From a virus: a stretch of DNA of 31,612 bases. The position numbers and the translations under genes were made by a program. The notes under the pieces were generated by a model. That model had not been told where the DNA came from. It ran no database searches and saw only the letters and a list, made by a program, of their open reading frames with translations. The stretch spans positions 1 through 31,612 of IMG/VR virus record IMGVR_UViG_3300025301_000060; one strand, 5' to 3'. How positions within the stretch are numbered: the stretch's first letter is position 1; every line of letters begins with the position of its first letter. This document shows, piece after piece, positions 11,927 through 25,829 of this stretch.

Positions 11927-12661
11927 ATGGCAAAGAAAGTTAAGACAGAATCAGCAGCACTTTTCAATCATAAGTTTGAAGCCATTAGGCCATTTGGTCC
12001 TACTGTTATTAAAGGAACAGTTCCCATGGATCTTATTCACTTACTGGATAAGAAAGCATCAAAATTGCTAGGAAGTAAGCAACTTTCCAAAGAATTTAAT
12101 CATGCACCCAATCTGGCGGGAAATGTTCACAAAGAAGTTCGTTATCCTTCATCGTGGATGAGTACCGAAGAATTCAAGCCGATGGTTGAGTTCATTGGAG
12201 AAATGGTAAAAGCTTATATCTCCATTCCCCCTGCAAGTGAAACCATCAGTCCTGAGTTTGTGGGCAAGCTCGTCATTCAATCAATGTGGACCGTGAGCCA
12301 GTGGGCGGGAGACTTTAATCCTTTTCACATTCATGAAGGACAACTGTCAGGAGTTATTTATTTACGCATTCCACCTGGATTAAAAGAAGAATACGAAAAA
12401 GAGGATCATTACCCAACAGTGGGAGATATTGTTTTTTATCACGGTCAAGCGGCGACGTTCAGCGGACATAAGTTGCAGTACACCCCTAAAGTGGGTGATG
12501 TATTCTTATTTCCCAATTGGCTCACACACGGCGTCTATCCTTTTAGAACCAAGAGACAGGAAAGACGATCTGTTTCCTTCAATCTTGAACTTATTAAGAA
12601 GGAGGGTTCAACAAGTGGAAACGCTGAAACATTACGTAACCAACAATTTTATAAAAAATAA
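11927..12661 (+). CDS. Fe(II)/2OG oxygenase-like protein, 244 aa
   Basis: The C-terminal half has the layout of the phage 2OG-Fe(II) oxygenase group with a double-stranded beta-helix. It shows FHIHEG (His134, His136), then LSGVIYLRIP, then FPNWLTHGV (His201) and ERRSVSFN (Arg213/214). In the wider family the first site binds iron with the distal His, and the Arg binds the carboxylate of 2-oxoglutarate. Here the first site is HxH and not the usual HxD, with Glu137 nearby. A 25-residue insert between strands (about 152-180) makes it longer than the others in this window. It is the first gene of the rightward unit and overlaps the next gene by one base (TAATG). No strong Shine-Dalgarno is visible. 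The substrate is unknown. Confidence 0.85.
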   Translation: MAKKVKTESAALFNHKFEAIRPFGPTVIKGTVPMDLIHLLDKKASKLLGSKQLSKEFNHAPNLAGNVHKEVRYPSSWMSTEEFKPMVEFIGEMVKAYISIPPASETISPEFVGKLVIQSMWTVSQWAGDFNPFHIHEGQLSGVIYLRIPPGLKEEYEKEDHYPTVGDIVFYHGQAATFSGHKLQYTPKVGDVFLFPNWLTHGVYPFRTKRQERRSVSFNLELIKKEGSTSGNAETLRNQQFYKK

Positions 12662-12999
12662 TGAAAAAAGTGGCTCTTCCGAAGAAAGTCAATGCGGGAC
12701 CTTTTGAAGTAGAACTTATTCTTATTCCCCATGAGGTGGCTTATGAATCATCGGACTACCAAGGAAGTTTCGTTAGTAAGCCTCCCTTAAAAATTTATCT
12801 GGATGAGGACATAATTAATCTAGGGGGAAAGGATGCCATTAATGTGGTGATGCATGAAATGCTTCATGTGGGTTATTATCAATACCATCTCAAGGACAAG
12901 GAGGAGGAAACTCTGGTAAATTCTGTAGCCAATTTTTTAACGGAACTGCTGTCGCGTTCAGAATTGAAAGAGTGGATAATAGACAACATGAATAAATGA
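12661..12999 (+). CDS. Small HExxH metallopeptidase-like phage protein, 112 aa
   Basis: Contains VMHEMLHVGY with a zinc-binding HExxH (His65, Glu66, His69), followed 12-14 residues later by a Glu cluster (EEET, about 81-84) that could supply the third ligand. The first half looks like strands and contains KPPLKIYLDED before the helix. This arrangement is common in small phage metallopeptidase-like proteins, which have no proven substrate. It is short for a self-sufficient protease. The start overlaps the preceding stop (TAATG), and the end overlaps the glycosyltransferase start (ATGA). Confidence 0.8.
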   Translation: MKKVALPKKVNAGPFEVELILIPHEVAYESSDYQGSFVSKPPLKIYLDEDIINLGGKDAINVVMHEMLHVGYYQYHLKDKEEETLVNSVANFLTELLSRSELKEWIIDNMNK

Positions 13000-13835
13000 A
13001 TAATTCATCCCTTAAAACTAAATCCAATGACAGTATTACTCCCCCCTCTATAAGAGTGTTTGTAGCCACTCCGTGTTATGGAGGGATGATCACCGTCAAT
13101 TATTTTGAAAGTTGCATGAAATTAATGGCCGAGTCCATACGAAAAGGAGTGGGGTTGCAGTTTGCCACCATTGGAAATGAATCATTGGTGACTAGGGCTC
13201 GTAACACACTGGTTCAGTTGTTTATGGATGATAAAAAAGAATACACGCATTTGATGTTTATTGACGCCGATATTGGTTTTGATTACAACACGATCTTTCG
13301 TATGTTGGACATAGACAAGGAAGTGGTGGCTTCCATCTATCCCCGCAAGGCTATTGATTGGAGAAAGGTAAAAAAGAAAGCTCAAGAAAAACCTGATGTC
13401 ACACCCGATGAACTCCACGCTTTTTCATTAGAATATAATTTAAATGTTAAGAATCCCGAACGTGTTGAAATGAAACAAGGTTTTATTGAAGTTATGGATG
13501 CCCCAACAGGCTTTATGCTCATAAAACGAAATGTCTTTAATAAAATGAAAATGGCCTATCCTGATCTCAAGTTCACCAATGACCAGCATTTGGGACAGCC
13601 TCATGAAACCAAGTTCAAGTACCATGACACATCGGACTGGAACTACGCCTTTTTCGACACAATGATTGATCCAGATTCCAAAAGATACTTGTCAGAAGAC
13701 TATGCATTCTGTAGATTATGGCAGAAGATTGGTGGTACCGTTTATGCGGACATAATGAGCGGACTAACGCATTATGGAACCTATGCTTTCAAAGGAAATG
13801 TAGGCACTCAATTCTTGCCACCAGAGAAGAAGTAA
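12996..13835 (+). CDS. Glycosyltransferase, GT-A type, 279 aa
   Basis: After a 17-residue polar N-terminus, the segment IRVFVATPCYGG starts a nucleotide-sugar-binding fold. LMFIDADIGF (Asp90, Asp92) is the DxD-type motif that binds the metal and sugar nucleotide. DAPTGFMLI (about 168-176) and YLSEDYAFCRLW (about 231-242) match the acceptor/catalytic region of GT-A enzymes, and a late His (THYG, His259) could be a metal ligand. Phage enzymes of this kind may modify virion proteins, DNA or host surface glycans, and the target here is unknown. It overlaps the previous gene as ATGA and lies just before a large virion protein gene. Confidence 0.88.
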   Translation: MNNSSLKTKSNDSITPPSIRVFVATPCYGGMITVNYFESCMKLMAESIRKGVGLQFATIGNESLVTRARNTLVQLFMDDKKEYTHLMFIDADIGFDYNTIFRMLDIDKEVVASIYPRKAIDWRKVKKKAQEKPDVTPDELHAFSLEYNLNVKNPERVEMKQGFIEVMDAPTGFMLIKRNVFNKMKMAYPDLKFTNDQHLGQPHETKFKYHDTSDWNYAFFDTMIDPDSKRYLSEDYAFCRLWQKIGGTVYADIMSGLTHYGTYAFKGNVGTQFLPPEKK

Positions 13836-13851
13836 CTTATTATACACTATT

Positions 13852-15699
13852 ATGGAACTGACCGATTTAAAATTTCAACCAGGAATAGACAAGCAGGATT
13901 CACCTTATGCGGCCGGTGATGATCGACGCTATGTGAACTCTGATTTTGTTCGGTTTCATTACGGAAAACCAGAGCGTTGGAACGGATGGGATTATCTTCC
14001 TAATCCTAATACAACAATCGTGGGCGTGGTCCGTGATACGCATGCGTGGCTAAGTCTGGACGGAACAAGGCATCTTGCCTTGGGAACCGACAGGAAACTT
14101 TATGTTTTTACGGGAGGAGTGTTTAATGACATTACCCCCATACGATCAGGACCAGATTCCCTTACCAATCCTTTCACGACCAACGGTACGACGACCGTTT
14201 CCGTAGCTGATGCGGCGCATGGAGCTAGTCAGGGAGATTTTGTGACTTTTGATTCATTCTCCACCCTTGACGGCTTGGACATGAATAATGAATTTGAAAT
14301 CACCACCATCACGGATACGGATAACTACACCGTTACCCATACAGACACAGCCTCGGGATCCACGTCAGGTGGAGGAGGAACAGGAAATGCTAATTATCAA
14401 CTCTCTATTGGAGAATCAACATCCACTTTTGGATATGGATGGGGTACCTCCACATGGGGAGCCAGTACATGGGGAACAGCCCGTTCATCATCTAGTGTGG
14501 TAATTTACGCACGAAACTGGTCACTTGATAATTTTGGGGAGGACTTGATTGCAACGGTCATTAATGGCGGAACTTATAAATGGGATCTTTCAGGAGGTGT
14601 CTCTAACAGAGCGGCAGTTGTTACCAACGCGCCGACAGCGTCTCGGTTTAGTTTAGTATCGGCCGATACAAGACATTTGTTTTGTTTAGGAACAGAGACA
14701 ACGATCGCAAATACAGCCACGCAGGATGACTTATTCTTTAGGTGGTCGGATAGGGAAGACCTTACGGATTGGACTCCCGTGGCGGCCAATGAAGCGGGAT
14801 CTCTTCGTATTGCGGATGGATCAAGAATTATTGGAGCGGTCAAATCAACAGGACAAATACTTGTGTGGACGGATAAATCCTTGCACGGTATCCAATTTGT
14901 TGGAACACCTTATACTTTTGGACAGCGTCAATTAGGTGCTAATTGCGGATTAATCGCTCAGCATGCCTGCATAGATGTAAACGGTAGAGCTTACTGGATG
15001 GGAGAAAATTCCTTTTACATGTATGATGGTGTGGTTAAAAAAATGCCTTGTTCCGTACAGGACTTTGTGTTTGATGACATCAGTTTCACTAATAAAAATG
15101 ACATTGCATGTGGACTAAACACCGAGTTTAATGAAATTTTTTGGTACTATGCTACCGCCAGTGCCACTCAAATTGACGCAGGGGTTGTCTATAATTATTT
15201 GGAAAACACATGGTATACCATCAGCCTTGACCGTACGAGTTGGTTAGCCGCTGAAATATATGAACAGCCTATCGCCACTCAATACAGTACAACTTTAACG
15301 GCTAATTCCGCGACTATTATGGGTTTAACGGCGGGAGCCTCTTATACATATGAACACGAGAAAGGAAATAATCAGGCCGATGGTACGGCGATTAGTGCAA
15401 GCCTGACTACGGGCTCCATTGAAATTGCCTCAGGGGATAATCTCATGTCTGTCAGCAAATTCGTTCCTGACTTTACTAATCTAACAAATAATGTTGCTGT
15501 TACATTGACTCTGGAACAATATCCACAATCAGCATCTAATGTGACAACAACAGGAAACGTCACGTCTTCAACACAGAAAATTGACATACGGGGAAGGGGA
15601 AGGTCCGTGAACCTCGCTTTTGTATCCAATACTGTGGATGATACGAACTGGAGGCTCGGCTCCATGAAACTGCAGCTTAGACCAGACGGGAGGAGATAA
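13852..15699 (+). CDS. Virion protein, tail/DNA-stabilisation (P22 gp10-like) type, 615 aa
   Basis: The N-terminus FQPGIDKQDSPYA followed by YVNSDFVRFHYGKPERWNGW is a signature of a widespread podophage virion protein. Later come repeated beta-propeller-like elements: LDGTRHLALGTDRKLYVF, NPFTTNGTTTVSVADAAHG, and FYMYDGVVKKMPCSVQDFVF. A WG-rich patch sits near residue 200 (WGTSTWGASTWG). Family knowledge points to a structural protein related to P22 gp10, which closes the portal channel and links the tail. That exact equivalence is inferred from recall of similar sequences. The gene stands alone among non-structural genes and is followed by two small genes usual for its neighbourhood. Confidence 0.8.
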   Translation: MELTDLKFQPGIDKQDSPYAAGDDRRYVNSDFVRFHYGKPERWNGWDYLPNPNTTIVGVVRDTHAWLSLDGTRHLALGTDRKLYVFTGGVFNDITPIRSGPDSLTNPFTTNGTTTVSVADAAHGASQGDFVTFDSFSTLDGLDMNNEFEITTITDTDNYTVTHTDTASGSTSGGGGTGNANYQLSIGESTSTFGYGWGTSTWGASTWGTARSSSSVVIYARNWSLDNFGEDLIATVINGGTYKWDLSGGVSNRAAVVTNAPTASRFSLVSADTRHLFCLGTETTIANTATQDDLFFRWSDREDLTDWTPVAANEAGSLRIADGSRIIGAVKSTGQILVWTDKSLHGIQFVGTPYTFGQRQLGANCGLIAQHACIDVNGRAYWMGENSFYMYDGVVKKMPCSVQDFVFDDISFTNKNDIACGLNTEFNEIFWYYATASATQIDAGVVYNYLENTWYTISLDRTSWLAAEIYEQPIATQYSTTLTANSATIMGLTAGASYTYEHEKGNNQADGTAISASLTTGSIEIASGDNLMSVSKFVPDFTNLTNNVAVTLTLEQYPQSASNVTTTGNVTSSTQKIDIRGRGRSVNLAFVSNTVDDTNWRLGSMKLQLRPDGRR

Positions 15700-15866
15700 T
15701 GGCTAAAATTACCATTACACGTTTACCTAACGCGACACCCGAGTATGAAAGTGGTCAGTTTGATCAAATGATCCGTCTTTTGGAGCAAATTATCTTGGTG
15801 CTTAATACTTCCTATGCTCAGGACATAGAAGAACAAAGTAGCGGAAGGAGTTGGTTCCTTGGCTGA
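15699..15866 (+). CDS. Small conserved phage protein, 55 aa
   Basis: The ATG at 15699 overlaps the stop of the tail-protein gene (TAATG) and is preceded by GGGAGGAGA. The protein begins MAKITITRLPNATPEYESGQ and contains a hydrophobic helix (MIRLLEQIILVLNTSYA). Small proteins with this RLPNA start and helix follow the gp10-like gene in other marine phages, in my recollection. The function is unknown. Its last bases overlap the start of the next gene by eight bases, so the three genes form a coupled chain. Confidence 0.85.
   Translation: MAKITITRLPNATPEYESGQFDQMIRLLEQIILVLNTSYAQDIEEQSSGRSWFLG
15843..15861 (+). promoter_or_regulatory. Strong Shine-Dalgarno that fixes a TTG start
   Basis: GGAAGGAG at 15843-15850 is followed by an 8-base spacer and then TTG at 15859-15861, in frame with the 122-aa protein. 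No ATG or GTG lies in a position that would give the protein its usual start (ADTYKNIG). This decides the start codon. Confidence 0.8.
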
Positions 15867-16227
15867 TACATATAAAAATATTGGCCTAGATATGACCACT
15901 ACTGGTCCTACAACCATTTACACTGTTCCAACGGCTAATCCAGGGGCATTACCCCCTGTTTTTCCAACCACAGCCGTAGTTAAATCTATCCTCATATGCA
16001 ATGATTCTGCTAACACCACCGAGTATACCATAGAATGGACTGACAGTAGTGCTTCGGCAACCTATAAAATTACCAACGATAAGACCATTGCTACCGATAC
16101 GACCTATGAAGTTTTATTACAGCCTCTGGTTCTGGAGGAATCGGACTTAATTAAAATAACTGCGAATGCCGCCAATGAGATTCACATTACAATGAGCTTT
16201 TTAGAAACAACAAAAGGAGCACTCTAA
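15859..16227 (+). CDS. Small virion structural protein, 122 aa, TTG start
   Basis: A Thr/Ala/Ile-rich protein with predicted beta-strands. It has the sequence pattern TIYTVPTANPG then VVKSILICNDSANTTEYTIEW and PLVLEESDLIKITAN. This is the pattern of small beta-rich proteins described as virion structural or decoration-type proteins in marine phages. Translation starts at TTG, supported by a strong Shine-Dalgarno and an 8-base overlap with the 55-aa gene. It ends with TAATC, in which the second oxygenase gene appears to begin. Confidence 0.8.
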   Translation: MADTYKNIGLDMTTTGPTTIYTVPTANPGALPPVFPTTAVVKSILICNDSANTTEYTIEWTDSSASATYKITNDKTIATDTTYEVLLQPLVLEESDLIKITANAANEIHITMSFLETTKGAL

Positions 16228-16229
16228 TC
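16214..16229 (+). promoter_or_regulatory. Shine-Dalgarno placed for an ATC start codon
   Basis: AAGGAG (16214-16219) is followed by a 7-base spacer and ATC (16227-16229). The arrangement TAATC mirrors the TAATG overlaps used throughout the window. In the reading frame of the downstream oxygenase there is no ATG, GTG or TTG between here and 16446. Confidence 0.65.
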
Positions 16230-16820
16230 GAACTTCATTCATTATTTATTACCCCTGTTTTTTCAGTAAATTTCACCACTGGCGATTATGGTGACTTAAT
16301 TAAAGCCATCCGAGAGGTTCAAAAAGAAGATCCAAAAGGGATTCAAAAAACAAATCAAGGAGGATGGCATAGTCGTGACGATCTTCAAGAGGACAAGCGT
16401 TTTGGTGTCATTAAAGCGGATATCATTCACTACTGCATAGAAGCATTGGATCATTTAAGGGTAGAGGATCACTGTGAACCTGAGCTTACTGGTATGTGGG
16501 CCATGATCAATGGTCCAGGAACCTATAACAAATTGCATTCTCACCCCCATAATTATCTCTCGGGAGCTTTTTATCTGCAAGTTCCAGAGAACAGCGGAAA
16601 ATTAACTTTTCATAATCCTCGCCCCCAATCTGAAGTTCTTGCCCCTCCTATGAAGACGGATCAATCCATTCATTTAGCCCCACGCGTGGGGTGGCAGCCA
16701 AAAGTTAAGGACTTGCTTATTTTTCCAGCATGGCTTAATCATGAAGTGGAAATTAACAATTCAAAAGAGGATAGAATTATGTTAAGTTTTAATGCTAAAA
16801 TACAAAGGAAATTAAATTAG
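16227..16820 (+). CDS. Fe(II)/2OG oxygenase-like protein, 197 aa, apparent ATC start
   Basis: Read from the ATC at 16227, the protein begins (M)ELHSLFITPVFSVNF, the kind of N-terminus usual for phage 2OG oxygenases of this group. The core has YNKLHSHPHNYLSGAFYL (His104, His106, His108), then FPAWLNHEV (His172) and DRIMLSFN (Arg183). GGWHSRDDL at about 45-53 matches a conserved GGWHS segment also seen in the 208-aa oxygenase at 18566. A start at the in-frame TTG at 16446 would remove 73 residues, including this conserved N-terminal part, so it is unlikely. Either ATC is really used or a G-to-C change or assembly error has altered an ATG. It abuts the next gene. Confidence 0.8.
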   Translation: MELHSLFITPVFSVNFTTGDYGDLIKAIREVQKEDPKGIQKTNQGGWHSRDDLQEDKRFGVIKADIIHYCIEALDHLRVEDHCEPELTGMWAMINGPGTYNKLHSHPHNYLSGAFYLQVPENSGKLTFHNPRPQSEVLAPPMKTDQSIHLAPRVGWQPKVKDLLIFPAWLNHEVEINNSKEDRIMLSFNAKIQRKLN

Positions 16821-17078
16821 ATGGCTAAAATCGTAGAACCAGCAGAACTTCTAGGGCATATGGATACATCGGATGGGAGAAGAATTCCGCGCTATAAGTG
16901 TAAAAGTGAAACTACTCTTACCAATACAGTAACGGGAGAGGAATATGATTCAGAAAACGCCATGCAATCAGATGTTGATAATCCTTCCACAGCGACACAA
17001 GAGGGGCATATTAGACGAGATGTTAAGATTTTTGCACCATCACTGGCGGATATGGTAGGGGAAGTTCCTAAAGATTAG
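16821..17078 (+). CDS. Small conserved phage protein, 85 aa
   Basis: Polar protein beginning MAKIVEPAELLGHMD with a middle segment RYKCKSETTLTNTVTGEEYD and a C-terminal IRRDVKIFAPSL. It contains one Cys and no membrane segment. Its start directly follows the oxygenase stop. Its last four bases overlap the end of the convergent 71-aa gene. It resembles short marine phage proteins encoded close to virion genes, but the role is unknown. Confidence 0.75.
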   Translation: MAKIVEPAELLGHMDTSDGRRIPRYKCKSETTLTNTVTGEEYDSENAMQSDVDNPSTATQEGHIRRDVKIFAPSLADMVGEVPKD

Positions 17079-17290
17079 GCACTACAAGCTTCACATTCAA
17101 TCTCAGTTTCATTGCCGTTAAGCATTACTTTTTCATCAGAAGTATCATGACATCCGCACCCTTTAAGGTGTTTGGACAGTGTCTTTTCTAGTCTTAAATT
17201 ATCTCTCTCCGTAGCTAATAAACGTTCGTGGTAGCGGCTCACCTTGTCAGCGAGGACAGCTATAGCCTTCAATACTTCCTGATTTTCCAT
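17075..17290 (-). CDS. Small coiled-coil protein with C-terminal Cys pairs, 71 aa
   Basis: The start at 17290 is chosen because AGGAG lies seven bases upstream of MENQEVLKAI. A longer frame back to 17338 has no such signal. Residues about 5-42 form a probable coiled coil, followed by GCGCH (Cys45, Cys47, His48) and ECEAC (Cys66, Cys69), which could bind zinc or an iron-sulphur species. It is the only leftward gene between two rightward units and overlaps the convergent gene by four bases. The function is unknown. Because it borders the gap with the FNR-like box, a regulatory or redox role is worth considering, though this is speculative. Confidence 0.65.
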   Translation of the reverse strand: MENQEVLKAIAVLADKVSRYHERLLATERDNLRLEKTLSKHLKGCGCHDTSDEKVMLNGNETEIECEACSA

Positions 17291-17340
17291 TTTTTTCTCC
17301 TGATTTAAATTTTTGGGTGAGAACCAATTTAAACACATCT

Positions 17341-17426: not shown

Positions 17427-17969
17427 ATGACAGAATTAAAGACAATAGACGAATTAATTCTAAAGAAAATAAGTGTATACTATACCTCTTTAGAGAACAT
17501 GCATTTGTTGGAAACAGTGCATTCCTATATTGAGAATAACAAAGATAAGTTTACCGAAAAATCATGGAACTGTAATATTAAAACCTCTAAAACAATATCC
17601 CAAAATATTTTGTATGACATAGAAGAGTTTAATCATTTAGCCACTAGTTTAGAAAATATTATTAAAGAACTTTTATATAAAAATTTTAAAAAATACACCC
17701 CGTTTATGATTTTTGAATCATGGATAAATATTTTAGGGGAGCATGGTTATCAAGAACCCCACCTACATGGCGACTGCGGATCTGCTGTTTTATATCTAAC
17801 AGAGAATAATTCTGAAATTGAATTTATTATTTACCCAGAGGATTTACGAAAAGCAATAGTCCCTAAAAAAGGTGCTGTTTTATTGTTTGACGGAACCACC
17901 TATCATAGAGTTGTAGAATCAAAACACGAAAGAATGTCTCTGGCTTTTAACTTTAATTTATTAAAATGA
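17427..17969 (+). CDS. Fe(II)/2OG oxygenase-like protein, 180 aa
   Basis: The start MTELKTIDEL at 17427 is preferred. An in-frame ATG at 17373 lies inside the predicted -10 element and would add a Cys/Arg-rich tail unlike the family. The core has EPHLHGDCGSAVLYLT (His112, His114, Asp116, so a possible HxD at 114-116), then GAVLLFDGTTYHRV (His160) and ERMSLAFNF (Arg169). The DNA is AT-rich compared with the virion genes. It is the first gene of the oxygenase run, sits behind the FNR-like box and overlaps the next gene as ATGA. The substrate is unknown. Confidence 0.85.
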   Translation: MTELKTIDELILKKISVYYTSLENMHLLETVHSYIENNKDKFTEKSWNCNIKTSKTISQNILYDIEEFNHLATSLENIIKELLYKNFKKYTPFMIFESWINILGEHGYQEPHLHGDCGSAVLYLTENNSEIEFIIYPEDLRKAIVPKKGAVLLFDGTTYHRVVESKHERMSLAFNFNLLK

Positions 17970-18565
17970 AAGCAGAAGTTATTACAGATTCTTTTTTTAT
18001 TGGCCATTATAAAATAGCCAATAAATACATTAAAGATCTTAATAAAAGATATGAAGCTGCGAAGGACGGTTTAAAGAGTTACGGTCCCCGTTTAGCGGGG
18101 AGACTGGATAGTGAATTAGAAATGTTAAACATTATACAATCAACGGATTCTTTTCCTCAAATTGTTAAATGCATGGACAAACATATGAAACAAAGCATTG
18201 AATTTAAATGCCTACCCCGTAAATCTTATGATTTGGATATTATAGGATGCTGGATAAATGATATGAAAGCGGGGGAATATAATCCTCCCCATACTCACCA
18301 TGACGGATCTGGCTGGTCAACAGTTTTATTTTTAAAGGTTCCCGAATTCATTAACGATGCAAAAGATCCCCATAAATTCAAGGATGGGGCGCTGTGTTTT
18401 ATAATGGGAGGAGACACCACTTATTATGTTACCCCTAAAGTTGGGGATTTTTATATCTTTCACGCCCGTCACCAACATTGTGTAATGCCCTTTAAAACCA
18501 AGGGCGCTAAAGCAGTTCGTCGATCCATGTCTTTTAATTTTATTGCAAAGAAGGAGGAGAAATAA
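17966..18565 (+). CDS. Fe(II)/2OG oxygenase-like protein, 199 aa
   Basis: An N-terminal helical half is followed by the oxygenase core: YNPPHTHHDGSGWSTVLFLK (His109, His111, Asp113), VGDFYIFHARHQHCVMPF (distal His171) and VRRSMSFNF (Arg186). Its HHD gives a clear HxD at 111-113, so all expected iron and 2OG contacts can be placed. The C-terminal pattern VTPKVGDFYIF resembles the 244-aa oxygenase at 11927, so the two may be the closest relatives in the window. It is coupled by ATGA to the previous gene, and its stop touches the next start. Confidence 0.87.
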   Translation: MKAEVITDSFFIGHYKIANKYIKDLNKRYEAAKDGLKSYGPRLAGRLDSELEMLNIIQSTDSFPQIVKCMDKHMKQSIEFKCLPRKSYDLDIIGCWINDMKAGEYNPPHTHHDGSGWSTVLFLKVPEFINDAKDPHKFKDGALCFIMGGDTTYYVTPKVGDFYIFHARHQHCVMPFKTKGAKAVRRSMSFNFIAKKEEK

Positions 18566-19192
18566 ATGAAAACAAACAATATTCCTCCCCCTTTCGTGAA
18601 GCAAATGATGTTTGGCACTTTGGTCATGGAGTTTAATTTGAAGATAACATGCCCAGAAGTGAGAGAGCCCTTATTAAAGGAAATAAAGAAATGGATTAAA
18701 AAAGACCCTGGGGTGGTAATTTCAAACATGGGGGGATGGCACTCCCCACTGACGCATACGGGAGTCTTGGGGAAGCTAACTAAAATCATTGCTGATGAAT
18801 ACGCACCAATTTATGGACAGGCGATGGGATGGGATCTTGATAATAGAAAATTTTTTTCAGAAAGCGGGGCGTGGGCCAATGTCAATCCACCGGGAGCATC
18901 AAACAACACCCATGTCCACTGCAACAGCGTTCTCGCGGCAATTTATTACGTGGAAACGCACGGACCTGAACAAGGATCTCTTTTTTTTGAAGATCCTCGG
19001 TCATCCGCTGTACAGAATCTTCCTGCGATAAAGGAGTTTAATTACCTAAATACCCGTAGTATCGAACGCGTTCCCCAAGACCATGACTTACTTCTCTTTC
19101 CCCCTTGGCTTCCTCACAGAGTGGCGCTTAACAAAAGCAAGAAAAGAAGAATATCCGTATCTGTTAATTTTAGCGTGGGGGCACCAGTATGA
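18566..19192 (+). CDS. Fe(II)/2OG oxygenase-like protein, 208 aa
   Basis: The N-terminal third contains NMGGWHSP (about 54-61). The core reads SNNTHVHCNSVLAAIYYVET (His116, His118), GSLFFEDPR, LLLFPPWLPHRV (His184) and KRRISVSVNF (Arg195), as in the common marine phage 2OG oxygenase group (the PF13759-like type, by recall). The first motif is HxH without a nearby Asp. Local GC content is visibly higher than in adjacent genes (29 of 60 bases at 18901-18960), suggesting a separate origin. The upstream AAGGAGGAG is a strong ribosome binding site. Confidence 0.88.
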   Translation: MKTNNIPPPFVKQMMFGTLVMEFNLKITCPEVREPLLKEIKKWIKKDPGVVISNMGGWHSPLTHTGVLGKLTKIIADEYAPIYGQAMGWDLDNRKFFSESGAWANVNPPGASNNTHVHCNSVLAAIYYVETHGPEQGSLFFEDPRSSAVQNLPAIKEFNYLNTRSIERVPQDHDLLLFPPWLPHRVALNKSKKRRISVSVNFSVGAPV

Positions 19193-19224
19193 GATACCCC
19201 CCAAGCAATTTATTGGAGGAGGGA

Positions 19225-19848
19225 ATGAATCTTGAAATAATTAAACATAATATTTTTATTGACGAAGCATGGTCTTTTACAATGCCTAATCACGAAAAGT
19301 GGAGGAAAGAAATTAAAAATATAATACTCGTAGAAAACAATAAAGAAATACATAAGCACACAACAATTCCAGAAGAAGACTGTAACGTTAAAGCTAGAAG
19401 AACCGCATGGGATTCTCATTTTCGATATCCTCAGATACGATCCTTAACTGATGAATTATCAAACATTATAGGGGGTTGGGTTAAGAAAGAAAATTTTGAT
19501 GCTCCTTCGATCTTGATACAAGACTGTTGGATTAATTGGTATAATAAAAATGATCATGCAGTGCCCCACGATCATCCATCCCATTTATCATTAGTCTATT
19601 TTGTAGAGGTGGAAGGTTCAGGAGCAGAGTTTTTATTTCACAAACCTGGTAGATTTGCATTAATAAGAAAAGAAAACAATGAAACATTTTGTAATAATAT
19701 TCAATCCGTGAAAGTAAAAAATGGAACTGTACTCATGTTTAATGGGTCTTTAGCACACGCCGTCACTCCTAATTTATCTAATAGCCCTCGTATAACTTTC
19801 GCTGCCAATTATGAAGTAAGGTATCACGAAAAAAGGGAGGATTATTAA
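19225..19848 (+). CDS. Fe(II)/2OG oxygenase-like protein, 207 aa
   Basis: The ATG at 19225 has GGAGGAGGG just upstream and gives MNLEIIKHNIFIDEAW, a usual N-terminus for this group. An in-frame ATG at 19189 overlaps the previous stop as ATGA and could also be used, adding 12 residues. The core has HAVPHDHPSHLSLVYFVE (His115, Asp116, His117), NGTVLMFNGSLAHAV (His178) and SPRITFAANY (Arg189). The order His-Asp-His is unlike the usual HxD, so which residues hold iron is open. The DNA is AT-rich. Confidence 0.83.
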   Translation: MNLEIIKHNIFIDEAWSFTMPNHEKWRKEIKNIILVENNKEIHKHTTIPEEDCNVKARRTAWDSHFRYPQIRSLTDELSNIIGGWVKKENFDAPSILIQDCWINWYNKNDHAVPHDHPSHLSLVYFVEVEGSGAEFLFHKPGRFALIRKENNETFCNNIQSVKVKNGTVLMFNGSLAHAVTPNLSNSPRITFAANYEVRYHEKREDY

Positions 19849-20532
19849 ATGTTTGAAAAGAAAATAACTTTCATTGCCACTGATAAAGATTATGAAAATA
19901 TATGGCCTCATCCCCGAGCTGCAAATCATTTTATTCCGCAAAATTATAAAAATTTAAAACGTCATGAGGATAAGAATCTTCACAAACCAACGGTTAAGAC
20001 ATGCATCCCTTTTTTAGATGCCTTAACTTTTGGATATATTATTCCTTTTGACCAAGATTATATTGTGGATGCAACGGAGACTGATTTAAGTATTTCATCT
20101 GCCAACAAAGAACCTGAACCTGCGGGATTTCATAGTAAGACCCAACTTCCGTTAGGAGATGACAAGGGAAAAGAAAACGCAGGAAAATTTCATAACAAAT
20201 GGCTAATTAGAACCCCACCAGGATATAGCTGTTTATTTATTCAACCCCTTAATCGGACAGAAGAACGTTTTGAAGTCATATCAGGAGTGGTGGATACGGA
20301 TACGTACATTAATGTAATTAATTTTCCTTTTCATTGGAAAAAATGGACTCAGCAAACCATTTTGAAAAAAGGAGAATCCATGGTTCAAGTAATTCCATTT
20401 AAACGAGAGTCATGGAAAAAATGGTCTGGCTTTGTAATGGAAGTAGCCCATGGTCAAACCCTTCGACTTCTGGAAAGTAAGTTTATGGATCGGTATAAAA
20501 AAATGTTCTGGAATAAAAAAAGTTTTAAATAA
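19849..20532 (+). CDS. Conserved phage protein of unknown function (DUF6065-like?), 227 aa
   Basis: The protein has the segments TVKTCIPFLDALTFGYIIPF (about 48-67), WLIRTPPGYSCLFIQPLNR (about 122-140), ISGVVDTDTYINVINFPFHW (about 148-167) and ILKKGESMVQVIPFKRESW (about 175-193). These alternate strands and turns in a way that suggests a beta-sandwich or cupin-like fold, but I see no HxD metal site with a matching distal His. I recall a domain of unknown function with this pattern (possibly DUF6065) that occurs beside 2OG oxygenases in phages. It sits inside the oxygenase run with no gap on either side, so it is probably part of the same pathway. Confidence 0.75.
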   Translation: MFEKKITFIATDKDYENIWPHPRAANHFIPQNYKNLKRHEDKNLHKPTVKTCIPFLDALTFGYIIPFDQDYIVDATETDLSISSANKEPEPAGFHSKTQLPLGDDKGKENAGKFHNKWLIRTPPGYSCLFIQPLNRTEERFEVISGVVDTDTYINVINFPFHWKKWTQQTILKKGESMVQVIPFKRESWKKWSGFVMEVAHGQTLRLLESKFMDRYKKMFWNKKSFK

Positions 20533-21069
20533 ATGAAAAAATTAAGTGATTTTGTGAGATGCTACGAAAATGTAATTGACAAGAAGTTATGTGAAAAAAT
20601 TGTCAATCAAAAAGATCTTACATTTTCACCCGCTACTACGGGAGGATATGATAAAGTAAATCCTGATTATAGGAGGTGCTATATGAAATACTTAGATAAT
20701 AAATTTGATAAAAATATTTTTAATATAATAGGTAAAATTATTATTAAATATAAAAAGGAAATCCCAGATTTTTACACAGGACTAACGATTACAGACACAG
20801 GGTATGAGCATCTTTTATACAGGGGAAGTGAAAAAGGAGAATATAAAGAACACACTGATAATTCGGATACATCTCCTCGTGTTTTAAGCTGTTCTTTAAT
20901 TTTAAATGATGATTATGAAGGAGGCAATTTTGCGTTTTTCGGAGGAGAATACATAGTTCCCAAGAAAGCTGGTAGTGCTGTTGTTTTTCCGAGTAATTTC
21001 TGTTTTCCCCATGCAGTCACCCCTGTTACAAAAGGAAATCGACACGCCGTCATCACTTGGATTCACTAA
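20533..21069 (+). CDS. Prolyl-4-hydroxylase-like 2OG oxygenase, 178 aa
   Basis: This has the classic catalytic layout of the P4H-like 2OG oxygenases. YKEHTDNSD holds the HxD (His107, Asp109), LSCSLILNDDYEGGNFAFF is the core strand pair, SAVVFPSNFCFPHAVTPV holds the distal His160, and KGNRHAVITW holds the 2OG-binding Arg170. Enzymes of this class hydroxylate proteins (often Pro) or small molecules. The length fits a minimal single-domain version, and the first 30 residues match the usual start (a bend-and-helix YENVIDKKLCEKIV). The DNA is very AT-rich (5 G or C in 60 bases at 20701-20760). The stop overlaps the next start as TAATG. Confidence 0.93.
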   Translation: MKKLSDFVRCYENVIDKKLCEKIVNQKDLTFSPATTGGYDKVNPDYRRCYMKYLDNKFDKNIFNIIGKIIIKYKKEIPDFYTGLTITDTGYEHLLYRGSEKGEYKEHTDNSDTSPRVLSCSLILNDDYEGGNFAFFGGEYIVPKKAGSAVVFPSNFCFPHAVTPVTKGNRHAVITWIH

Positions 21070-21815
21070 TGAATTTTAAAAAACTAATTTATCCTATGGG
21101 ACTCGAAGAGTTTCTTTTAAAATACAACAACAATGAATCCTTTATTATAAAAGGACATAAAGACAAATTTTCTAATTTAATTACTTTGGAGGAAATAGAA
21201 TCTACCATTAATAATGGTTGTAATATTAATTCCCCCATGCAAATTATTAAAGATGGCGTCCGACACTATTATATCCAACAAAATTTAAAATGGAGTCAAG
21301 TGGCGCTTCAGAAGTCTGTTATAAAAAAATTACTTGAAGAAAAACATAGTTTTATGATGATGAATCAAACACAAATCAATAAAAAAGTATCTGAACTCAT
21401 AGACACAATTGAATCTACTTTCACTAATTCTCATGCAGATCTACACTTGTATATTTCACCAAAAACGGCATCAACAGGATATGATGCCCATCGAGATCGT
21501 CCGCAGCATAAAATTTATATGCAAATAATAGGTATGACCCATTGGAAAATATATAAAATAATAAAAGAAATGCTAGAGGAGACAATAGCTTTTGAAGAAA
21601 AAGATGAAAAAGTGTATCTAGAGGAAGAAAAGAATTTTACTCTTGAACCAGGGGATCTGCTCTATATGCCTTCAGGAACATTCCATAAAGTGAGGAATGA
21701 AGAGGGTCCGCGAGTCTCGTTCAGCATTCCTTTCGTAATAGAAGAGAAAAAGAGTGAATATATGGATAGAACATATATTCCCTTTAAAGAACTTTTTGAC
21801 ACCTCTAGGGAATGA
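21069..21815 (+). CDS. JmjC/cupin-type 2OG oxygenase, 248 aa
   Basis: I place the start at the ATG at 21069, which overlaps the preceding stop (TAATG). A TTG four codons upstream is less likely. The protein resembles JmjC-fold protein hydroxylases of the ribosomal-oxygenase type. It has an N-terminal ESFIIKGHKDKFSNLITLEE segment, then DAHRDRPQHKIYMQIIGMTHWK with HxD (His141, Asp143), and TLEPGDLLYMPSGTFHKV with the distal His206. Known bacterial and eukaryotic relatives hydroxylate ribosomal protein residues. Whether this phage protein does so is unknown. It lacks the long C-terminal winged-helix part of the cellular enzymes. Confidence 0.87.
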   Translation: MNFKKLIYPMGLEEFLLKYNNNESFIIKGHKDKFSNLITLEEIESTINNGCNINSPMQIIKDGVRHYYIQQNLKWSQVALQKSVIKKLLEEKHSFMMMNQTQINKKVSELIDTIESTFTNSHADLHLYISPKTASTGYDAHRDRPQHKIYMQIIGMTHWKIYKIIKEMLEETIAFEEKDEKVYLEEEKNFTLEPGDLLYMPSGTFHKVRNEEGPRVSFSIPFVIEEKKSEYMDRTYIPFKELFDTSRE

Positions 21816-22354
21816 AAAATAAATATATATATGTCAAAAACATGCTGTCCATGGATTTGGTAGAATACATCTCTACTTGGCATTTAAAAAACTATGAAAA
21901 AACAGCCAAAGATAGTCAAGTTCCTCTCGCTTTTTCAATTCATTCCAAGGACTCAGAAATTTATTATCATTTACTTCATCATTTACTCCCCATTATGGAA
22001 AAAGAAACTAATTTAAAGTTAAAGCCTATATACAGTTATAGCAGAATTTATTTAGGTGGCGCCGAATTAAAAAAACATACCGACAGACAGGCTTGTGAAA
22101 TAAGCGCTTCTATAACTTTAAAATATTTTTACCATAATAAAGAATATCAATGGCCTCTTTGCATGGAAAATATACCCATAAATATTAAGTCAGGTGACGG
22201 GGTTATTTATAAAGGAGAGGAGATAGAGCATTGGAGGCCTATTTTTCAACAGCCAAAAAAATATTGGCATCATCAAGTTTTCGTGCATTATGTTGATTTA
22301 AATGGTCCTTATTCTGATGAGAAAGAGGAAGTTAATGTCAAAAGTATTTGTTAA
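21812..22354 (+). CDS. 2OG oxygenase-like protein, 180 aa
   Basis: The motifs are LKKHTDRQACEISASITL with HxD (His89, Asp91), KSGDGVIYKGEEIEHWRP with distal His140, and a final strand HHQVFVHYVD. The HTDRxxCEIS and GDxVIYxGxEIEHWR pattern belongs to a phage 2OG oxygenase group I recall from marine and T4-like phages. The usual Arg before the last strand is replaced by the HH-Q stretch, so Arg142 next to the distal His may take its role. It starts inside the previous gene (ATGA), and its last 20 bases overlap the next gene. Confidence 0.85.
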   Translation: MKNKYIYVKNMLSMDLVEYISTWHLKNYEKTAKDSQVPLAFSIHSKDSEIYYHLLHHLLPIMEKETNLKLKPIYSYSRIYLGGAELKKHTDRQACEISASITLKYFYHNKEYQWPLCMENIPINIKSGDGVIYKGEEIEHWRPIFQQPKKYWHHQVFVHYVDLNGPYSDEKEEVNVKSIC

Positions 22355-22853
22355 AGAAAATTTTTTTCCATTAGAGATTTATAATTTTATTGTGAAAGAA
22401 ATACTATCTGTTGAATATAAACCTCCTCCTAAAGAGTCAAGAGAACAGTATCAAGGTAATTACTGGAATACTCATTATTTACCAAAAGGATGCGAGCTGC
22501 AAACAAAAATGAAAGAACTTGTCGCAGAACATTTTTATTTTGATGATTTTAGTTATATAGATTCTTGCTACACAATGGTGGGAGCAGCAGATAAACCTAG
22601 ACCTCACATCGATCAGTCAATAGGAGCAACTCATCAACTTTTAATTTACATGCATGGCGAAGAATCTAGAAACAACGGAACAGGTTTTTATCATGTTACC
22701 GATGATGATCAATTAGAATTAAGTTATCATGTGGGTTTTAAAAAAAACAGAGCAGTTTTTTGGACCTCTGATATATATCATGCTCCTCTTCAATGGGCTG
22801 GAGGTGGTTCTTTTAGATACTCTATTGCTAGTTTTTTAAAAAAATCAAGTTAA
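22335..22853 (+). CDS. 2OG oxygenase-like protein, 172 aa
   Basis: I choose the ATG at 22335, preceded by GAGGAA and giving MSKVFVKENFFPLEIYNFIV, a typical oxygenase start. Upstream in-frame codons are out of family pattern. The motifs are KPRPHIDQSIGATHQLLIYM with HxD (His91, Asp93), RAVFWTSDIYHAPLQW with distal His149, and GSFRYSIASF with the 2OG-binding Arg161. All key residues are present. It is the last gene of the run. Its stop shares TTAA with the stop of the convergent tail gene, leaving no room for a separate terminator. Confidence 0.87.
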   Translation: MSKVFVKENFFPLEIYNFIVKEILSVEYKPPPKESREQYQGNYWNTHYLPKGCELQTKMKELVAEHFYFDDFSYIDSCYTMVGAADKPRPHIDQSIGATHQLLIYMHGEESRNNGTGFYHVTDDDQLELSYHVGFKKNRAVFWTSDIYHAPLQWAGGGSFRYSIASFLKKSS

Positions 22854-23284
22854 GAATAGTTAGGATCGTAATCAATCCAAGTTTTATTCCAATCCCAAGC
22901 CAAAGGCGCTTCAACGTCGTTAAAAGTTTCTATTGAGTTTCCCGCATCCACCCAGGCAATTCCCGCATTTTCAAAAGCATTATCATAGTCCATTACAGCT
23001 TCGAGAATCTGGCTTTTTCTTGTTTCACTCCAAGTTAATAATTCTTGAATTGTTGTGGAGCCCACGGAATCAGAGACATCTGATAACACAATATTCCCCG
23101 CCATTTCAGGGGGGTCACTGTCCGCTACCTTAGTTTGAATTTCCTTCTGTCCTGAAGTCCATAAAATATAATGAACGGTATTCTCTAGTGCAGGCATGGC
23201 GTTTCCCTTATCCGCCCATTTAATAATATAAGAATCATCTATGTTAGTATAGTCGTTATTTGATACTACAATATGAGTGGCCAT
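22850..23284 (-). CDS. Probable tail fibre assembly chaperone-like protein, 144 aa
   Basis: A small soluble protein that begins MATHIVVSNNDYTNID. It has a central Asp/Glu-rich part, the helix LLTWSETRKSQILEAVMDYD (about 84-103) and a Trp-rich C-terminus (PLAWDWNKTWIDYDPNYS). Tail assembly chaperones have a similar R-x-x-IL helix and lie directly after a fibre gene, as here. The sequence match is loose, so it could instead be a small fibre-tip protein. It is the last gene of the leftward unit. Confidence 0.6.
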   Translation of the reverse strand: MATHIVVSNNDYTNIDDSYIIKWADKGNAMPALENTVHYILWTSGQKEIQTKVADSDPPEMAGNIVLSDVSDSVGSTTIQELLTWSETRKSQILEAVMDYDNAFENAGIAWVDAGNSIETFNDVEAPLAWDWNKTWIDYDPNYS

Positions 23285-23293
23285 AAATATTCC

Positions 23294-23950
23294 TTAGTGT
23301 TTTATAATGTAGTTAACCACCACGTAAGGTGAAAAAGTATTGTTTCCCGCTGCCGTTACCGTTCCTGTAAGTGTAGAAGCTACTGCCACAGTACCTGTCA
23401 GTGTTCCCGCCAAGGTGTGAGCATGATTGTGCCCCGTTCCTGAACCTGAATTTTCCGTGTTCCGTGGGCTTTGCGGGTGTACGAAGCCTTCTTGTTGTCC
23501 CCCTTGTCCTGGCCCTCTTCCTGGGTCGACTGTATTTTGGAACCATATTACGTAATCATGATCATGAGAGGCTAGTTGAGCCGTGGTGAGTGATGTATTG
23601 GAAATAGATCCCGTTACCGTTACCGCTTGGTTATTGGTAACAGTATTAGTTGCCGCTTGGTTATTGGTAACAGCCACGGTTACCGTATTAGCACCGCCCG
23701 TTGCCGCTAGGTTATAAGTGTTTCCATCGTATCCTTGTGGAGTTTTACCTTGTAGTTGGGGAACATTAAAAGTTGTTGATCCGTTGCCCGCTCCATAGGT
23801 ATCTCCAAGAACCACATAAAGTTCCGCATAGGTTGTTCGTGATACAGCGGTTCCGTCGCATAATAAATATCCGCTGGGAGCCGTAGTTTTTCCCCAAGGC
23901 TTGATTGTACCTACTTCGCTTCTGTTTGTAAAATCCTGTAGATTAGTCAT
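23294..23950 (-). CDS. Tail fibre protein with phage tail collar domain, 218 aa
   Basis: Residues about 12-75 form a phage tail collar domain (PF07484 type): VGTIKPWGKTTAPSGYLLCD, then SRTTYAELYVVLGDTYGAG and STTFNVPQLQGKTPQGYDG. The rest is Thr/Val/Asn-rich with short repeats (TNNQA twice, LTGTV twice), a central His-rich bend (SHDHDYV, GHNHAH) and the end FSPYVVVNYIIKH, typical of such fibres. Proteins of this kind form trimeric short fibres that contact the host surface. The gene overlaps the upstream fibre gene by eight bases. Confidence 0.9.
   Translation of the reverse strand: MTNLQDFTNRSEVGTIKPWGKTTAPSGYLLCDGTAVSRTTYAELYVVLGDTYGAGNGSTTFNVPQLQGKTPQGYDGNTYNLAATGGANTVTVAVTNNQAATNTVTNNQAVTVTGSISNTSLTTAQLASHDHDYVIWFQNTVDPGRGPGQGGQQEGFVHPQSPRNTENSGSGTGHNHAHTLAGTLTGTVAVASTLTGTVTAAGNNTFSPYVVVNYIIKH
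23623..23673 (-). repeat. 21-bp direct repeat inside the collar-fibre gene
   Basis: CCGCTTGGTTATTGGTAACAG occurs at 23623-23643 and again at 23653-23673, a 30-base period. It encodes the two TNNQA units of the fibre. Exact repeats of this length are a possible site of recombination or slippage. Confidence 0.9.
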
Positions 23951-24710: not shown

Positions 24711-25829
24711 TTATGCAGCCTTGTCAACTTCTACCCAAACGGCTGTTTGCGAGTCATCCACTTCTTGCCAGAAGGTACCTCGTAATGTTCCTGTACTACT
24801 TGTAGCAGAAACCCCTGTTATTGTAAAGACAACATCTGTTTGAATATTCAAGGTTCCTGGGCTCGAAGTTAATAAATTTCCTGTAGCTGCATAGCTTGAT
24901 TCCTGCCCTGCATCCCCAATATTGGATGTCATGGCTTGGCCAGTAACGGTGATATCAAAATCCGCCGTTCCCGTTGCATCGCCTTCTGATGAAGTTAAAT
25001 CATTACCATCAACGTCCACATCAACATCAATGTTAATGGTTTCTTCCCCTAGAGAGGAAGTCAGTCCCGCCGCTGTGAGAGTAACATTACAGTCTCCCGT
25101 AATGGTGGATGATCCCAATGATCCAGTTGCCACTGTTCCCGTGGGATAAACACCTGGGCTGATGGCAATTAATGGAGCCCCTAAACTTACATCTAATTCT
25201 GGTTCACTAGCAGCTACAACCGTTATTGTTGCATCAGCCGTAATTGAGTATGTTCCAATACTTGTTGCTGCTTGAACACCTGATGGGAAGGCAAAAGGAA
25301 TCATGACTCCCGCGGTAGATGTTGCACCTTGTCCTGTTACTGTAATATCAACATCGGCACTCGCAACAGCGTCACCAGCACTTGCTGTCGCACTGACTCC
25401 CGTTAAAGCGTATTCAGTTGCTAAAGTCCCCCAAAGATTATCCCCCCATCCAATTATTGTTCCCGTATCGGCATTGTAGCCCCGTCCCCAACCAGATTGT
25501 GCCACTCCTCCCGCCGTTTCCTCTCCTAAAATAGCGGTAAGACCATTAGCCGTGGGACTAACATCCGCATTAGCGGTAGTAGTTACATCATTAGTATTGG
25601 AAGTGAGTGTCTGTGATTGTACGACAGTAACATTAGCAATGCCTTCTGCGATGGCATCACCAGCAGTAGACGTACCATAGACGCCAGTAAGCGTGATATT
25701 ACAATCACCCGTAATAGTGGGCGTTGCAGCGCTTGACGTAAGGCCGTCACCTGTCGCGGCAACGGGTGCGTACTCTCCCCACGCGCCACTGCCCCAAGTC
25801 TCTCGGCCCCATCCTTGTAGAGAGGCCAT
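24711..25829 (-). CDS. Beta-repeat virion or fibre-like protein, 372 aa
   Basis: It begins with a Trp-Gly patch (GWGRETWGSGAWGEYAP) and has a similar one near residue 115 (GWGRGYNADTGTIIGWGDNLWG, shortened here). The rest is made of diverged repeats of about 35-45 residues, of the type LTSSxGxxTITGDCNITLTG, rich in Thr, Ser and Val and nearly free of Lys and Arg. Such sequences build extended beta structures in phage fibres and surface proteins. It is likely a virion surface protein. I do not recognise a named family. Confidence 0.7.
   Translation of the reverse strand: MASLQGWGRETWGSGAWGEYAPVAATGDGLTSSAATPTITGDCNITLTGVYGTSTAGDAIAEGIANVTVVQSQTLTSNTNDVTTTANADVSPTANGLTAILGEETAGGVAQSGWGRGYNADTGTIIGWGDNLWGTLATEYALTGVSATASAGDAVASADVDITVTGQGATSTAGVMIPFAFPSGVQAATSIGTYSITADATITVVAASEPELDVSLGAPLIAISPGVYPTGTVATGSLGSSTITGDCNVTLTAAGLTSSLGEETINIDVDVDVDGNDLTSSEGDATGTADFDITVTGQAMTSNIGDAGQESSYAATGNLLTSSPGTLNIQTDVVFTITGVSATSSTGTLRGTFWQEVDDSQTAVWVEVDKAA

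Follow-up and report, generated by a model that had tools for sequence, protein, structure and literature searches.

Why would a phage line up eight oxygenase genes, and on what would so many related enzymes act? Few auxiliary genes are as common in ocean viruses as those for oxygenases, and we found no known substrate for phage proteins of the PF13759 family, the largest group in the set described here. The window, by which we mean the whole 31,612-base IMG/VR virus record IMGVR_UViG_3300025301_000060, carries nine plus-strand genes at 17427-22853. Eight of them encode relatives of 2-oxoglutarate (2OG)-Fe(II) oxygenases (C1 to C5, JmjC, C7, and C8) and one encodes a DUF6065 protein (D); two further oxygenase genes, A and B, lie upstream (Table 1). 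Our comparison with related loci showed that the constant part of this island is the pair of C2 and D only. We hypothesize that the genes form a polymorphic, exchangeable island for tailoring reactions within the tail module of a podovirus-like marine phage and act on a shared late target, a tail or fiber protein or its glycan. We prefer this reading tentatively and judge its chances to be somewhat short of even.

The nine genes are as tightly packed as an earlier interpretation, made from the letters of the window alone (here, the sequence-only reading), had claimed: successive junctions measure -4, 0, -4, 0, 0, -1, -4, and -20 bases, i.e., zero gaps or overlaps of 1 to 20 bases, and the last gene, C8, overlaps the convergent tail operon by 4 bases. 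The run is not an assembly artifact, because contigs from two other metagenomes (L001 and L002) carry all nine genes and encode proteins 100% identical to those of the window. The number of promoters and terminators found was about that expected from shuffled sequence.

Are all these proteins oxygenases? We assigned membership at the level of fold or family, by a curated profile match or a double-stranded beta-helix fold, and on this basis all eight island genes plus A and B encode oxygenase relatives. In the row, four match PF13759, one PF13640, and one JmjC_2, while C7 joins by its fold and C8 by profile; A and B are both PF13759 proteins. The earlier claims of eight oxygenases in a row, two more upstream, and several subfamilies therefore stand, with ten members comprising six PF13759, one PF13640, one JmjC_2, and two that Pfam missed (21812 and 22335; C8 has no significant Pfam match). 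The set is also no simple tandem duplication, as had been foreseen. Pairwise identity among the six PF13759 proteins is only about 23-31% over the longer alignments, so recent tandem duplication is ruled out, and this divergence indicates old, separate lineages.

The metal residues are invariant, as expected from the recognizable catalytic layout attributed to these genes, but the layout is canonical in only part of the set. C5 (H107-x-D109/H160, 98-100% conserved), JmjC (H145-x-D147/H210, in four sequences only), C7 (H89-x-D91 and H140, invariant), and C8 (H91-x-D93, H149, and R161, invariant in all 31 sequences) have the H-x-D/E...H site. In A, B, and C1 to C4 the carboxylate ligand is not present: each of these proteins has H-x-H as its first motif. 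The same holds for 150 of the 160 PF13759-like proteins of the examined loci (H-x-D in the other 10), and the distal His and Arg are kept in 160 of 160. Judged from these alignments, the second His either replaces the usual carboxylate or is a non-ligand. Two solved PF13759 structures of uncharacterized marine alphaproteobacterial proteins, 2rg4 and 3bvc, are sequence relatives of B (E about 5e-15) and share the motif H-x-H-P-H with it, differing from B in being bacterial proteins. A basic residue after the distal His, at the 2-oxoglutarate position, is present in the PF13759 members, C5, and C8.

Table 1. Genes of the oxygenase island and its surroundings (positions in the window)
Feature	Position	Strand	Evidence
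C1, PF13759 oxygenase, variable	17427..17969	+	PF13759 1.4e-8, phrog_81 3.7e-22
C2, PF13759 oxygenase, constant core gene	17966..18565	+	PF13759 5.7e-13
C3, PF13759 oxygenase, variable	18566..19192	+	PF13759 1.9e-18
C4, PF13759 oxygenase, variable	19189..19848	+	PF13759 2.6e-14
D, DUF6065 protein, constant core gene	19849..20532	+	PF19541 1.7e-7, phrog_7084 3.5e-44
C5, P4H-like 2OG oxygenase, common	20533..21069	+	PF13640 5.7e-15, phrog_61 3.9e-37
JmjC, JmjC_2 oxygenase, rare	21069..21815	+	PF08007 9.4e-15
C7, prolyl-hydroxylase-fold oxygenase	21812..22354	+	AlphaFold2 pLDDT 93; 4j25 E 2.2e-8, SnoN Z 16.8
C8, P4H-like 2OG oxygenase, variable	22335..22853	+	hhalign to C5 family 92.7%, E 4e-7
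A, PF13759 oxygenase, upstream	11927..12661	+	PF13759 2.2e-19, phrog_81; H-x-H...H...R
B, PF13759 oxygenase, conserved non-AUG (ATC) start	16227..16820	+	PF13759 1.1e-28
Glycosyltransferase-like protein (weak), conserved upstream of tail gene	12996..13835	+	phrog_1574 2e-43 (unnamed), phrog_34859 glycosyltransferase 1.6e-4; synteny
Tail/neck stabilization-type virion structural protein	13852..15699	+	phrog_3287 6e-79; relatives in HTVC023P, HTVC027P, DSL-LC04
Small conserved protein, TAA overlapping B start	15859..16227	+	phrog_1276
85-aa conserved protein, upstream edge of variable island	16821..17078	+	Synteny
Small conserved divergent gene, C-terminal CEAC	17075..17338	-	Open reading frame (ORF); 77-aa minus-strand ORF in relatives
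First gene of convergent tail operon	22850..23284	-	ORF, synteny
Tail collar/fiber protein	23294..23950	-	phrog_9116 tail protein 6.5e-27
Ser/Thr/Gly-rich repetitive protein	24711..25829	-	ORF; conserved position

Does the set stay together in other phages? DUF6065 relatives occur on 385 stretches in IMG/VR, and we examined 80 loci, or 81 with the window. Because the loci were picked by DUF6065 similarity, the presence of DUF6065 in all of them is by construction; that of its neighbors is not. The layout common to the 80 loci is A, variable genes, the glycosyltransferase-like gene, the tail gene, the 15859 gene, B, the 16821 gene, the island, and the convergent tail genes. A C2 relative lies immediately upstream of DUF6065 in 64 of the 81 loci, and in most of the others an oxygenase or another gene stands between the two or in the place of C2. 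Around this pair the content changes. The 43 islands that are complete on both sides have 31 distinct gene contents, with one oxygenase in 3 islands, two in 9, three in 12, four in 15, five in 3, and eight in the window only; the nine-gene combination was seen only in the window's population. The sequence-only reading had proposed a multi-step modification pathway. As a fixed set, such a pathway is not supported, because gene content varies between relatives and only C2 and DUF6065 are constant. The targets that it had suggested, a virion protein, a glycan, or a host factor, stay candidates. The finding that the same reading had considered fatal to its idea, loss of the metal site in most members or relatives with one or two unlinked members, was not made either: at least three linked oxygenases occur in 31 of the 43 islands.

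Selection differs along the island. For the core genes, pairwise ratios of nonsynonymous to synonymous substitution rates (dN/dS) against close relatives point to purifying selection: they are mostly 0.06-0.25 for C2, with 0.49 in one fragment of 61 codons, and 0.12-0.31 for D. The ratios are 0.17-0.30 for C7 and reach 0.33-0.59 for C4 and 0.14-0.81 for C1. Among the examined loci the JmjC gene, whose start is most likely ATG 21069 and possibly TTG 21057, occurs only in the window's population and in L007; the changes between these copies are mostly nonsynonymous (dN 0.035, dS 0.014, ratio 2.6), in one pair with very few changes. The turnover of gene content and the fast evolution of variable genes would also suit an insertion hotspot that gathers unrelated small auxiliary genes with no shared substrate, with C2 and DUF6065 as the only functional unit. 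We regard this as improbable, given the tight translational coupling within the window and the narrow functional range of the cargo recognized in relatives, mostly oxygenases or group-transfer enzymes.

This cargo includes a carbamoyltransferase (PF16861 3e-60, PF02543), a sulfotransferase, methyltransferases (PF13578; PF04989, rhamnosyl O-methyltransferase/CmcI), a weak GT9 match, and another JmjC protein. The NodU/TobZ-type carbamoyltransferase is split in two genes in phage islands (L014:1079-2041 and L011:117-638), and the phage sulfotransferase (PF00685, 1e-21) lies immediately after DUF6065 (L031:1391-2257). A literature search found no paper that brings 2OG together with phage, carbamoyltransferase, and sulfotransferase. 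Genes of the carbamoyl-, sulfo-, rhamnosyl-O-methyl-, and GT9-like kinds, which occupy these slots, typically serve to decorate envelopes or glycolipids, and the island might instead remodel the host cell surface (lipopolysaccharide or another envelope glycan), perhaps to keep out superinfecting phages or to let progeny leave the cell. The oxygenases would then hydroxylate sugars or lipids, which the transferases of the relatives would decorate, and the variability of the island would suit an arms race. We consider this unlikely: the island sits inside the tail module, no glycan-making or glycan-moving gene was firmly recognized here, and the relatives of its prolyl-hydroxylase/P4H and JmjC_2 members act mostly on proteins.

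What, then, does the constant partner of C2 do? D had been described as an unknown protein. It belongs to a family, DUF6065, and its AlphaFold model has a dUTPase-like fold. Direct sequence comparison with dUTPases or solved structures gave no convincing match, PF00692 was not matched, and profile comparison with dUTPases reached an E-value of about 0.01 only. From 38 aligned sequences, the best model has a predicted local distance difference test score (pLDDT) of 76 and a predicted template modeling score (pTM) of 0.66, with the other four models at 59-68, so that we hold the fold assignment with moderate confidence. All 50 Foldseek matches listed are dUTPases or dCTP deaminase (3ecy, E 4.6e-4), and VIA gave Z-scores of 10-11, up to 11.2 (5y5o, root mean square deviation [rmsd] 2.7 over 121 residues); viral structure models agree with this fold. 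The segments GVVD-x-D-x-Y, P-x-N-R, and KGE-x-x-VQV are in register with dUTPase motifs 3, 2, and 4, and D149 is conserved in 37 of the 38 sequences and D151, Y153, R136, and Q180 in all of them. The likeness to the dUTPase family lies in the predicted fold, in GVVD-x-D-x-Y as motif 3, and in G-x-x-x-x-Q as motif 4, whereas motif 2 is P-x-N-R. Because the motif 1 Asp is not conserved (it is replaced in haloviruses) and the C-terminal motif 5 is absent, leaving the five dUTPase motifs incomplete, we describe D as dUTPase-like in its predicted fold but do not assign it to the dUTPases.

This fold and its motif-like segments suggest another explanation, in which the island would serve to synthesize or protect a nucleotide or DNA base in modified form: the oxygenases would hydroxylate it, and the DUF6065 protein would bind or hydrolyze the (modified) nucleotide. 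Haloarchaeal tailed viruses have a DUF6065 homologue that lacks oxygenase neighbors, adjoins the tail operon, and stands beside thymidylate synthase (HSTV-2) or ribonucleotide reductase (HF1), with DNA polymerase also nearby. DNA hypermodification genes have been reported for HTVC023P-type phages (PMC9599517), and some islands contain a second family weakly related to DUF6065. However, the unconserved motif 1, the missing motif 5, and the lack of a PF00692 match fit this explanation poorly, no Pfam match linked any of the oxygenases to a family that acts on DNA, such as TET/JBP or AlkB, and the location is the tail and not the replication module; it too seems improbable. The second family, phrog_17480, aligns with DUF6065 at E 7e-4, occurs in several islands (members L065:69-761, L044:2816-3481, and L046:5428-6114), and may be another dUTPase-like family. 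The DUF6065 gene is also present in 37 of 289 alphaproteobacterial genomes sampled; around 16 bacterial loci there were no recurrent neighbors and no functional hint, and we found no paper on DUF6065.

C7 has no Pfam match, and we predicted its structure because hhalign gave no link to the other oxygenase families of the set. The AlphaFold model (pTM 0.89) has structural matches among prolyl hydroxylases and among other 2OG oxygenases, including SnoN (5ep9, rmsd 2.9 over 166 residues) and 4j25 (Z 16.0; Foldseek and VIA), and by this predicted fold C7 is a 2OG oxygenase. It shares fold and H-x-D...H with PPHD of Pseudomonas putida and with HIF PHD2 (4j25, 4iw3, and 3ouj; Z about 15-16), but the identity is just 10-16%, and C7 has no conserved Lys or Arg 9 to 12 residues past the distal His; it has R142, H153, H154, and Q155 instead. 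Bacterial PPHD acts on EF-Tu and YcfD acts on L16, and JmjC_2 is a family of ribosomal oxygenases. With the fold of C7 among the closest to PPHD and PHD (4j25; 4iw3 with EF-Tu) and a JmjC_2 member in the island, the enzymes could be imagined to serve host takeover by hydroxylating host translation factors or ribosomal proteins. Eight enzymes that vary among close relatives would be odd for conserved host targets, and a place in the tail module would be odd as well; we consider this very unlikely.

We return to the tailoring of a tail component as the preferred reading. The island is flanked by a tail structural gene on one side and by the convergent tail collar/fiber operon on the other, both in the window and in its relatives. 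This position and the variable content around a constant core support the reading, as do the invariant metal residues and the purifying selection on the core genes. The transferases of the relatives are usual tools for decorating surface glycans or peptides. Known members of the prolyl-hydroxylase/P4H and JmjC_2 families often act on proteins, and the island has three members with prolyl-hydroxylase/P4H relatives and one JmjC_2 member. In our proposal, C2 (17966), a PF13759 oxygenase, and D (19849), the DUF6065 protein with the dUTPase-like fold, form the constant pair and are joined by exchangeable iron oxygenases and, in relatives, by sulfo-, carbamoyl-, glycosyl-, and methyltransferases. 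Each oxygenase would hydroxylate one position on a common target made late in infection, most likely a tail or fiber protein or a glycan on such a protein, and the variable gene set would alter the surface chemistry of this target between phage strains. The Ser/Thr/Gly-rich protein at 24711..25829 may be such a substrate. With core divergence controlled for, island content correlates modestly with the first convergent gene (partial r 0.29, p 0.004), which fits the proposal. Some points weigh against it: this correlation can be explained by physical linkage alone; the variable genes (C1, C4, and the JmjC pair) evolve faster, and therefore some could be dispensable; and the dUTPase-like fold of DUF6065, with its halovirus sites near thymidylate synthase and ribonucleotide reductase, fits nucleotide chemistry better. 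A more speculative version, to which we give little credence, is that C2 and DUF6065 represent a new oxygenase system, in which a dUTPase-fold protein with reshaped catalysis would bind a substrate that is repetitive or linked to a nucleotide. A series of exchangeable oxygenases, most of them with iron sites of three histidines, would then act on this substrate.

How does the island compare with known phage systems? Sets of several oxygenases in HTVC023P-type pelagiphages are already published: Wittmers et al. (2022) reported eight 2OG oxygenases that are not orthologous and lie near one another without being adjacent, frequently accompanied by one or two "ferrochelatases" (PMC9599517). The likeness extends to related podoviruses with several such genes close together, and the tail protein of the window shares 39-41% identity with those of HTVC027P and HTVC023P and 44% with that of phage DSL-LC04; the window record does not contain the hallmark replication genes. 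The HTVC023P isolate has a run of three (gp65-67) adjoining tail genes, whereas the window has eight contiguous oxygenases around the constant core. New are the run of eight contiguous genes, the constancy of C2 and DUF6065 as a core, the predicted DUF6065 fold, and the transferases found as companions. HTVC023P gp67 (L083:6295-6915) is annotated as a ferrochelatase, but it is a homologue of C7 (32% identity, 6e-25), and Pfam gave no match for it, to ferrochelatase or to any other family. We therefore reject the ferrochelatase identity; by homology gp67 is an oxygenase, and the reported oxygenase-ferrochelatase partnership is hence, at least in that phage, one of oxygenase with oxygenase. For C7 itself a ferrochelatase function is ruled out by its 2OG oxygenase fold and the lack of a ferrochelatase profile match in Pfam. 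The families phrog_2954, phrog_3531, phrog_274, and phrog_1644 match oxygenases of the set, and the names "DNA endonuclease V" (phrog_274) and "minor coat protein" (phrog_1644) look misleading for its members. Our analysis corrects such names (ferrochelatase and DNA endonuclease V in PHROGs, ferrochelatase also in GenBank and the literature) and draws attention to the unusual H-x-H motif of a large enzyme family. Moreover, the island offers a handle on these enzymes: two genes form its constant core, its natural variants make up a series from one oxygenase to eight, and the transferases that accompany it limit the chemistry to be considered.

The upstream gene B has an unusual start. It contains no in-frame ATG, GTG, or TTG before codon 73, and its start site is an ATC preceded by AAAGGAG that overlaps the TAA of the 15859 gene. 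Among 32 non-redundant orthologues (window included) the codon at this site is ATC in 12, ATT in 11, and ATG in 9, and none of them has a standard in-frame start upstream. The orthologues have AAAGG(A) ahead of the start and overlap the stop of the previous gene (TAATC/TGATT); in the ATT group, a CTG one codon earlier is an alternative start. This pattern suggests that initiation at a non-AUG codon is conserved and is probably coupled to translation of the gene before it. Orthologues with this start context are found in L032, L063, L044, L126, L076, and others.

The small divergent gene at 17075-17338 either marks the left side of the island in relatives or sits within it. One relative, L086, is contig 11 of the single-cell assembly AG-910-K03 from an uncultured alphaproteobacterium; of this 28-kb contig, the 13.4 kb read are phage-like and carry the island, which provides a lead to the host.

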